This document shows positions 24,618-26,685 of a DNA stretch of 64,000 nt, piece by piece. The position numbers and the translations under genes are program-made. Origin of the DNA: Candidatus Melainabacteria bacterium (GTDB lineage: Bacteria > Cyanobacteriota > Vampirovibrionia > Obscuribacterales > Obscuribacteraceae); assembly GCA_027451745.1 (NCBI GenBank), contig DAIDIP010000012.1, positions 1 through 64,000 of the forward strand, read 5' to 3'. Each line of letters starts with the position of its first letter. Position 1 is the stretch's first letter. Below the pieces are notes generated by a model. That model ran no database searches. It saw only the letters and a program-made list of their open reading frames with translations, and had not been told where the DNA came from.

Positions 24618-24701
24618 TGGCGGAGCAGGAGGGACTCGAACCCCCAACCCTTTCGGGCAGCCGCTTTCAAGGCGGTGTCTTCATCCAGCCAGGTCTGCTC
24701 C
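24618..24701 (-). tRNA. tRNA-Ser (anticodon TGA)
   Basis: The complementary strand folds as a class II tRNA. The acceptor stem is GGAGCAG with CTGCTCC, then G and an encoded CCA. The anticodon loop is CTTGAAA on a CCGC/GCGG stem. A variable arm (CCCGAAAGGG) and a T arm with GGTTCGAGTCC follow. Anticodon TGA and the long variable arm indicate serine. The length is 84 nt including CCA. It lies 27 bp upstream of the SpoIID gene on the same strand. Confidence 0.95.
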
Positions 24702-24981: not shown

Positions 24982-25170
24982 TTAGCGTAAGTGCCCAGAG
25001 CCATACTCAGGTAAGTGTATTTTTACTTGATTTGCCTCTAACGGTTGATTAGCAGGCATTATTTTCATACGGCTATTAGCTACGGACTTTTTTGCAGTCA
25101 GCTTAGTGCTTGCCGTTTTATTGGGAGCTTTTTTTGCGACTGCTTTAGTAGCACTGGTTTTTTTAGCTAC
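24982..25170 (-). other. -1-frame extension of the histone H1-like gene
   Basis: From the G at 25170 downwards, the frame one base behind the annotated gene is open for 62 codons to TAA (24982-24984). It encodes VAKKTSATKAVAKKAPNKTA, continuing the same Lys/Ala/Thr composition, then a distinct end (KIMPANQPLEANQVKIHLPE, then YGSGHLR). It has no start of its own in a useful position. The composition continues without a break from the upstream frame, so this is read as the true C-terminus of a 131-residue protein, reached by frameshift, slippage or a sequence error at the A run (25171-25179). Confidence 0.75.
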
Positions 25171-25376
25171 TTTTTTTTTACTGCCGTTTTTCTTTTAACG
25201 GTTTTCTTTTTAGCAGTCGATTTTTTGGTAGCAGCAGGCTTAGGCGAGCGCTTTTTAGCCTTTTTTACTGCTGTTTTTTTAGGAGCAGCTTTTTTTACTG
25301 CTTTTTTAGGAGCAGCTTTTTTTACTGCTTTCTTTGGGGCAGCTTTTTTTACTGCTTTTTTCTTCTTTACGGCCAT
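25167..25376 (-). CDS. Histone H1-like Lys/Ala-rich DNA-binding protein (zero-frame product)
   Basis: The 69-residue zero-frame product is almost wholly Lys, Ala, Pro, Val and Thr. It has a tandem AAPKKAVKK repeat (three times in residues 11-38) and then KRSPKPAATKKSTAKKKT. It resembles bacterial H1-like nucleoid proteins (Hc1-type, or the C-terminal tails of HU-fused proteins), which bind DNA by charge. Translation should be strong: the start is ATG at 25376 after AGGAGGAAAAAA. The frame ends at TAG (25167-25169) directly after nine A and a G. Reading one base back gives a further 62 residues of the same character, see 24982-25170. A leader hairpin (TCACC/GGTGA, 25392-25404) lies just upstream of the ribosome-binding site. 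Role in chromatin is inferred from composition only. Confidence 0.78.
   Translation of the reverse strand: MAVKKKKAVKKAAPKKAVKKAAPKKAVKKAAPKKTAVKKAKKRSPKPAATKKSTAKKKTVKRKTAVKKK
25170..25179 (-). promoter_or_regulatory. Putative -1 frameshift / slippage site
   Basis: On the minus strand nine A (25179-25171) are followed by G (25170) and the zero-frame TAG. In codons this reads GTA AAA AAA AAG TAG, so the last seven bases are A AAA AAG, the slippery heptamer of E. coli dnaX. A -1 slip restores the extension frame. Nine A can also cause transcriptional slippage. A 6-bp stem (AGTAGC with GCTACT, loop 13 nt) begins at the last bases of AAG, too close for a classical stimulator. No upstream Shine-Dalgarno stimulator was seen. 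Confidence 0.55.
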
Positions 25377-25695: not shown

Positions 25696-26685
25696 CTAAC
25701 CTCGAGATGATCCAACAAAACCAAATGCTGATCTAAAAGCCTCGTTTTGAATTTGTTTTAGATCTGAAAATTCAATTACATCGTGATCTATCAGACGTTC
25801 ATATTCGCCTGGAAGCGTGCATGGGGCTGGGTTCCGTCCAGGGTTATCAGTGCACACAGCAATTGCAACCCCTGCTTCTCTGCACCGAGAAAAAACTGAT
25901 CGTAAGTCTCCTAGATCTTTTAAAACTCCAGTTTGTCGATAACTAGTTGGACAAACTTCCAAAGTGATTTGTCTTTTGGCTAACTCGCTTAACATTTCTG
26001 GTTTAAGTAAGGGGATGTGAATTCCATGACCGATACGATCTAAAACAGGAAAATATTGCTCGTGCACATTTGCTAAACTCGTTTCACCTAAATGACAGGT
26101 GGTTTTTAAACCGTTTGCTCTTCCTTTTGCTAATAATTCAACCCACACTTCATATTTACCTGGTTCAATTTCTGGTCCACCAATGTCAATGCCAACCACT
26201 GGTCCTATATGATCTTTTGCTACTTGCAAGATAGCTTCGTTTATTTCCAAAGGCAATCGGCGATCAAGCATAACTATTTGTTTGACGATAATCGGATAAT
26301 CAGCTGGTCTCAAATTAGCTGTAATAGTTTCAACTATGAGCTTCATTTGACCAATACGTTTAGCAGTACTCAAATTTTTATCAGTCCGAAAATACGGATT
26401 ATATCTGAGTTCTAAATACTGTAAATTCTCAAAAGTGTAAGCTCCGCGACAAAGTCTCAAACAAAAATAGGGCAGATGCTCCAGACTTTGTAATTCTTCC
26501 ACTAAGGTGTGAATTTTGACAAATTCTTCCAACGTGCGACATGGACGAGTAAACCATGAATAAAAACCATCGTAATCGGGAAAATAACTTAGAATGTGGT
26601 GATCTTGACGCTGGAGAAACTTATAAATAATGCGAGGATGGAGTGCTCCACCAAGATGTCTGTGTAAGTCTGCGTATAGCGCCAT
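25696..26685 (-). CDS. Adenosine deaminase-family amidohydrolase
   Basis: Metal-dependent deaminase of the adenosine/AMP deaminase family, 329 residues, cytoplasmic. The first metal motif is DLHRHLGGAL (HxH). CHLGET carries the next His and the general-acid Glu. The RIGHGIHIP and LEVCPTSYRQTGV blocks are present, and the last motif is CTDNPGRN, where true adenosine deaminases have TDDP. The replacement of the second Asp by Asn leaves the metal-ligating Asp but makes the exact substrate uncertain; this may be a divergent adenosine deaminase or a related aminohydrolase. The start is ATG at 26685. It stands alone, with aat 137 bp upstream on the same strand. Confidence 0.85.
   Translation of the reverse strand: MALYADLHRHLGGALHPRIIYKFLQRQDHHILSYFPDYDGFYSWFTRPCRTLEEFVKIHTLVEELQSLEHLPYFCLRLCRGAYTFENLQYLELRYNPYFRTDKNLSTAKRIGQMKLIVETITANLRPADYPIIVKQIVMLDRRLPLEINEAILQVAKDHIGPVVGIDIGGPEIEPGKYEVWVELLAKGRANGLKTTCHLGETSLANVHEQYFPVLDRIGHGIHIPLLKPEMLSELAKRQITLEVCPTSYRQTGVLKDLGDLRSVFSRCREAGVAIAVCTDNPGRNPAPCTLPGEYERLIDHDVIEFSDLKQIQNEAFRSAFGFVGSSRG

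Follow-up and report, generated by a model that had tools for sequence, protein, structure and literature searches.

A histone H1-like gene interrupted beside a run of nine A's

The window, the 64,000-nucleotide stretch of DNA analyzed here, comes from an uncultured soil relative of cyanobacteria, and the genome that carries it (G000) comprises 3.0 Mb in 76 contigs. The sole congener compared, G001 (isolate BWMinControl_Nextera63_MAG3), is a different species and 71% complete; as we read the isolate name, it stems from the Barre Woods mini-metagenomes, which were sequenced by Illumina NextSeq (PMC7065516). On the minus strand, the window contains a lysine- and alanine-rich open reading frame (ORF), read as encoding a histone H1-like nucleoid protein, that begins with ATG at 25376 downstream of an AGGAGG ribosome-binding site and is closed by TAG directly after an A run. 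The run is exactly nine A's long (A9; 25179 to 25171), is followed by G at 25170 in the context GT-A9-G, and belongs to the 22 runs of nine or more A's counted genome-wide in G000. The −1 frame stays open beyond the TAG until a TAA at 24984 to 24982, such that a change of frame would give a total product of 131 amino acids. The features are as follows.

25696 to 26685, minus strand: upstream neighbor encoding an adenosine deaminase-family protein (Pfam PF00962, E = 8.7e-32), the synteny anchor across the family
25388 to 25383, minus strand: ribosome-binding site AGGAGG, found in the congener too
25376 to 25167, minus strand: zero-frame ORF of 69 amino acids, H1-like, with 31 lysines, 0 acidic residues, and TAG as its stop codon; the zero frame is conserved in the congener
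25179 to 25170, minus strand: putative slippage site A9-G, with A_AAA_AAG within it at 25176 to 25170 and TAG next at 25169 to 25167
25170 to 24982, minus strand: −1 frame extension, 62 codons (VAKKTSAT...QVKIHLPEYGSGHLR) plus TAA, 76% identical in the congener
24932 to 24901, minus strand: terminator-like hairpin AAAAGAGGAAGAC/GTCTTCCTCTTTT, 3′ of the second stop; the congener has a similar hairpin after its own second stop

A first-pass annotation had described the coordinates, the heptamer, both frames, and the hairpin after the second stop, all of which hold on rereading of the sequence, and the two products that it had proposed, of 69 and 131 amino acids, are likewise predicted here. The shorter product would be tail-less and, having no acidic residues, wholly basic. 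The 14-kDa full-length product would contain 42 lysines and join the basic repeats to a nonbasic tail of 28 residues, within which both of its 2 acidic residues lie, and it is probably of low complexity and disordered. The predicted frame junction region reads VKKKVAKK, and predicted tryptic peptides of the −1 frame include IMPANQPLEANQVK and IHLPEYGSGHLR. The description of the gene as H1-like stands in that the nearest Pfam family is HC2 (PF07382), a composition-driven match that, at 30.4 bits (E = 5.1e-7), lies below the gathering cutoff of 40 bits; the product is also under the NCBIfam cutoffs.

A tRNA-Ser(UGA)-like gene is present at window positions 24618 to 24701 (minus strand), where it underlies the 5′ end of the listed SpoIID ORF, and it is nearly identical in the congener. 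The gene was missed by ARAGORN and is below the Rfam cutoff (best match, tRNA-Sec at 28.7 bits), and no other tRNA-Ser(UGA) was found among the G000 tRNAs read.

Frame-specific constraint on both sides of the run

In G001, the gene is flanked by the same neighbors, an adenosine deaminase-family gene and a SpoIID-domain gene. The 22 nucleotides around the slip site (GTAAAAAAAAAGTAGCTAAAAA) are identical in the two genomes, and the −1 frame of G001 is open through to a matching ...VKIHLPEYGSGHLR end. The check on a relative that had been proposed for the locus thus found A9-G-TAG with an intact downstream frame, and both species with the split gene have A9-G-TAG. An open −1 frame of 62 codons arises by chance in 0.7% of trials with Markov-1 sequence of matched composition. 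Because chance openings are this rare and the congener keeps both A9-G-TAG and the open frame, we conclude that the open −1 frame exceeds chance expectation.

Substitutions between G000 and G001 indicated which frame is under selection. Upstream of the run, synonymous bias was found in the zero frame only (Fisher p = 3e-9), and downstream of the run it was found in the −1 frame only (Fisher p = 7e-9), with p > 0.5 for every other frame (Fisher, synonymous versus nonsynonymous). The 42 substitutions in the −1 frame, 25 of them at third positions, cause 15 residue changes where 26 are expected, and none of 5,000 random placements reached 15. The dN/dS ratio of the −1 frame was 0.12 overall and 0.02 across the last 32 codons, which encode the tail, with this strongest constraint in the segment ANSR-MKIMPA...GSGHLR. 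Moreover, constraint was found for the 30 lysine-rich −1-frame codons taken alone (p = 0.005). A required change to the −1 frame, as first proposed for this locus, agrees with frame-specific constraint on both sides of the run. From zero-frame constraint before the run and −1-frame constraint after it, we infer that both lineages must change frame at the A run or close to it, with evolution pointing to the protein. We consider it very likely that expression of the gene includes the −1 frame as an extension, and slippage on the A run probably provides the cell with two lengths of the protein.

The split is derived within the family

We located the adenosine deaminase gene in 47 of 50 genomes of the family and read the downstream sequence at 30 loci, judging the ORF where the contig was long enough. 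Readable copies of the syntenic gene in other genera usually consist of one continuous H1-like ORF with lysine- and alanine-rich repeats, mostly of about 160 to 255 amino acids (101 and 42 amino acids in two genomes, and none recognized in one). These ORFs typically end with a short nonbasic tail, and their A runs are of 8 or fewer. Since the readable copies elsewhere in the family usually have a continuous ORF and A runs that do not exceed 8, the split originated within this genus. The long, frame-changed product would thus resemble the ancestral architecture of the family, and the short product would be the new one. The tail itself was sought in 50 family genomes, 53 order genomes, and GTDB 220 contigs, and the congener alone has it. 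The exact site pattern gave 0 matches in viral contigs, and the protein gave 0 matches to plasmids. The split feature is known from two species only.

Runs of nine or ten A's at other genes

The dnaX gene also carries a long A run, A9 in G000 (G000:C2:96846-96854, minus strand) and A10 in G001, at the same late position and in frame. Both shifted frames stop within 3 to 11 codons in both species, and no dnaX run of at least 8 was found in 28 other family loci. The layout is as in Thermus dnaX, and we regard dnaX of this genus as a candidate for Thermus-like production of tau and gamma.

In the tal-pgi gene of G000, the glucose-6-phosphate isomerase part loses its frame at an A9 run (G000:C11:45015-45023), whereas G001 has A10 and a continuous frame of 963 codons. 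The gene was therefore rejected as a second conserved split gene, and the break in G000 is possibly an error or a real change of run length. Two further G000 ORFs break frame at A9, an integrase-like transposase ORF (G000:C3:141130-141138) and an alpha/beta-hydrolase-like ORF (G000:C19:5729-5737); slips in the opposite direction would restore each of them.

Alternative explanations of the split

If the −1 frame were instead expressed alone, as a 28-amino-acid peptide from the ATG of MKIMPA and with no frameshift, the tightest constraint would be expected where it lies, in the segment around that ATG. Such a peptide does not account for the constraint on the 30 lysine-rich codons that precede it, which are open in both species. 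Neither species has a Shine-Dalgarno sequence before that ATG, the stop of the zero frame lies too far upstream to allow coupling, and a split H1-like gene would be expected to carry its lysine- and alanine-rich sequence on past the stop into the −1 frame, as seen here; we find a separate peptide hardly credible. Homopolymers are error prone, and a true run of ten, read wrongly as nine, would turn the gene into one frame, as the tal-pgi comparison illustrates. However, G000 and G001 are different species in which a shared error is unlikely, G000 itself resolves an A10 run, and G001, from Illumina NextSeq, resolves A10 at two other sites yet has A9 here. Ten A's are therefore not systematically collapsed, and with two independent assemblies in agreement, the indel error that had been raised as an alternative becomes highly improbable. 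Replication slippage could also make the run a phase-variable contingency tract, off at A9 and on at A10, that both assemblies caught at A9, and the A9/A10 differences between the species at pgi and dnaX indicate that such runs do change length. Against a contingency tract, A9 is held independently in both species, each of which has A10 runs elsewhere, and the flanking 22 nucleotides are fixed too. To our knowledge, H1-like proteins are not among the usual phase-variable surface antigens, and we consider this explanation very unlikely.

Slippage on the run could occur at the ribosome or at RNA polymerase, and the two routes would yield an identical protein sequence. At the ribosome, a −1 shift on A_AAA_AAG, promoted by the TAG that adjoins it, would make the long form from a uniform mRNA. 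In Escherichia coli, A_AAA_AAG is very slippery because a single tRNA-Lys reads AAG. The heptamer is among the most efficient in that organism (PMC4066793), and at the H1-like gene it is intact, in phase, and followed immediately by the stop in both species. G000, however, has tRNA-Lys with both CUU and UUU anticodons, and the second tRNA-Lys (CUU) should pair firmly with AAG; in the 71%-complete G001, UUU alone was found and CUU was not, such that the argument from tRNAs draws on one genome only. Moreover, comparison of G000 with G001 found no stimulator conserved at canonical spacing (a Shine-Dalgarno-like sequence upstream or a structure 5 to 9 nucleotides downstream), in agreement with the first-pass annotation, and no Shine-Dalgarno-like stimulator was seen at any conserved place. 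A single stem, AGUAGC/GCUACU, is present; it overlaps with the slip site, and the positions of its 3′ arm in the two species are not homologous. A strong three-way fold (z = −6.3; 25120 to 25230, minus strand, 111 nucleotides) encloses the A run in G000 and is not matched in the congener (z = −0.3), for which reason it is not claimed as a stimulator. Ribosomal slippage of the E. coli dnaX type, the mechanism initially preferred, is thus unlikely as the source of the long form given the tRNA-Lys(CUU) in G000, though the heptamer could also act at the ribosome alongside polymerase slippage.

A model of slippage by RNA polymerase

RNA polymerase slippage at A9, which the first-pass annotation had only mentioned, fits better than the ribosomal route, and we think it reasonably likely, from the sequence evidence, that the slip is transcriptional. 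Polymerase is favored over ribosomal slippage because of the tRNA-Lys(CUU), the lack of a conserved stimulator, the small number of A9 runs, and the run in dnaX. The presence of two lysine tRNAs has been put forward as a possible reason why Thermus uses RNA polymerase slippage and not ribosomal frameshifting (PMC5009743), and under-representation of runs has been taken as a sign that they are slippage prone (PMC1088944). Run statistics combined the run-length series of the window with a genome-wide A9 search, and the 22 runs of nine or more A's in the 3.0-Mb genome compare with an approximate 200 extrapolated from the shorter runs of the window. The dnaX run may be a coincidence as support for slippage. 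Counting against slippage as well, A runs arise easily in lysine-rich genes.

In the transcriptional model, RNA polymerase copying A9 would add one A (or drop two) in a fraction of mRNAs. Slipped mRNAs would read GTA AAA AAA AAA GTA GCT... and give the long 131-amino-acid protein, and faithful mRNAs would halt translation at TAG to give the 69-amino-acid basic protein without the tail. Both forms would come from one gene in what is presumably a fixed ratio, and they may bind DNA differently. We raise only as a tentative possibility that the genus uses RNA polymerase slippage at A9 and A10 routinely, making the H1-like protein, DnaX (as tau and gamma), and some metabolic genes in two lengths, with the polymerase setting the tail-bearing fraction.

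Significance and comparison with known systems

Most described cases in which a frame slip gives two products come from insertion sequences, dnaX, prfB, and a small number of secretion genes. The literature searched held no report of a frame slip in a bacterial histone H1-like gene, and the text of the GeneTack survey made no mention of histones. The mechanism is already known, and the gene class is new for it as far as the literature was searched. If the model is true, one gene would provide a chromatin-like protein with and without a tail in a fixed ratio. Moreover, because a second candidate, dnaX, occurs in the same genomes, the lineage would offer a clean natural test of the idea that polymerase slippage takes the place of the ribosomal frameshifting of E. 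coli in organisms that have two lysine tRNAs.

In composition, the H1-like protein shares lysine-, alanine-, proline-, and threonine-rich repeats with HC2/HctB of Chlamydia (which it matches weakly), AlgP of Pseudomonas, and the H1-like proteins of Burkholderia, but the G000 protein is shorter, has a distinct tail and a split frame, and falls below cutoffs. In having an interrupted ORF that is restorable by slippage at A9 and not inactivated, the gene resembles the pseudo-pseudogenes (Baranov et al. 2005), but its interruption is conserved in two species and its downstream frame is under selection. The E. coli dnaX gene has the identical A_AAA_AAG heptamer in the correct phase and likewise differs from the H1-like gene, which lacks an upstream Shine-Dalgarno sequence and a spaced hairpin, occurs with an extra tRNA-Lys (CUU), and would make its long product by the shift, the reverse of its use in E. 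coli. Like the H1-like gene, Citrobacter rodentium tssM1 and Shigella mxiE have a premature stop beside a homopolymer (poly-A or poly-T) and reach full length through slippage, and for tssM1 both lengths are needed at 20 to 25% slippage (PMC4256274). These are secretion genes and do not encode a nucleoid protein, the run in tssM1 is of 11, and their slippage was shown by experiment. Finally, Thermus thermophilus dnaX shares with the H1-like gene nine sense-strand A's, two lysine tRNAs, and two lengths from one gene (PMC1088944, PMC5009743). The genes are unrelated, and in Thermus the long product comes without a slip, whereas here it would need one.
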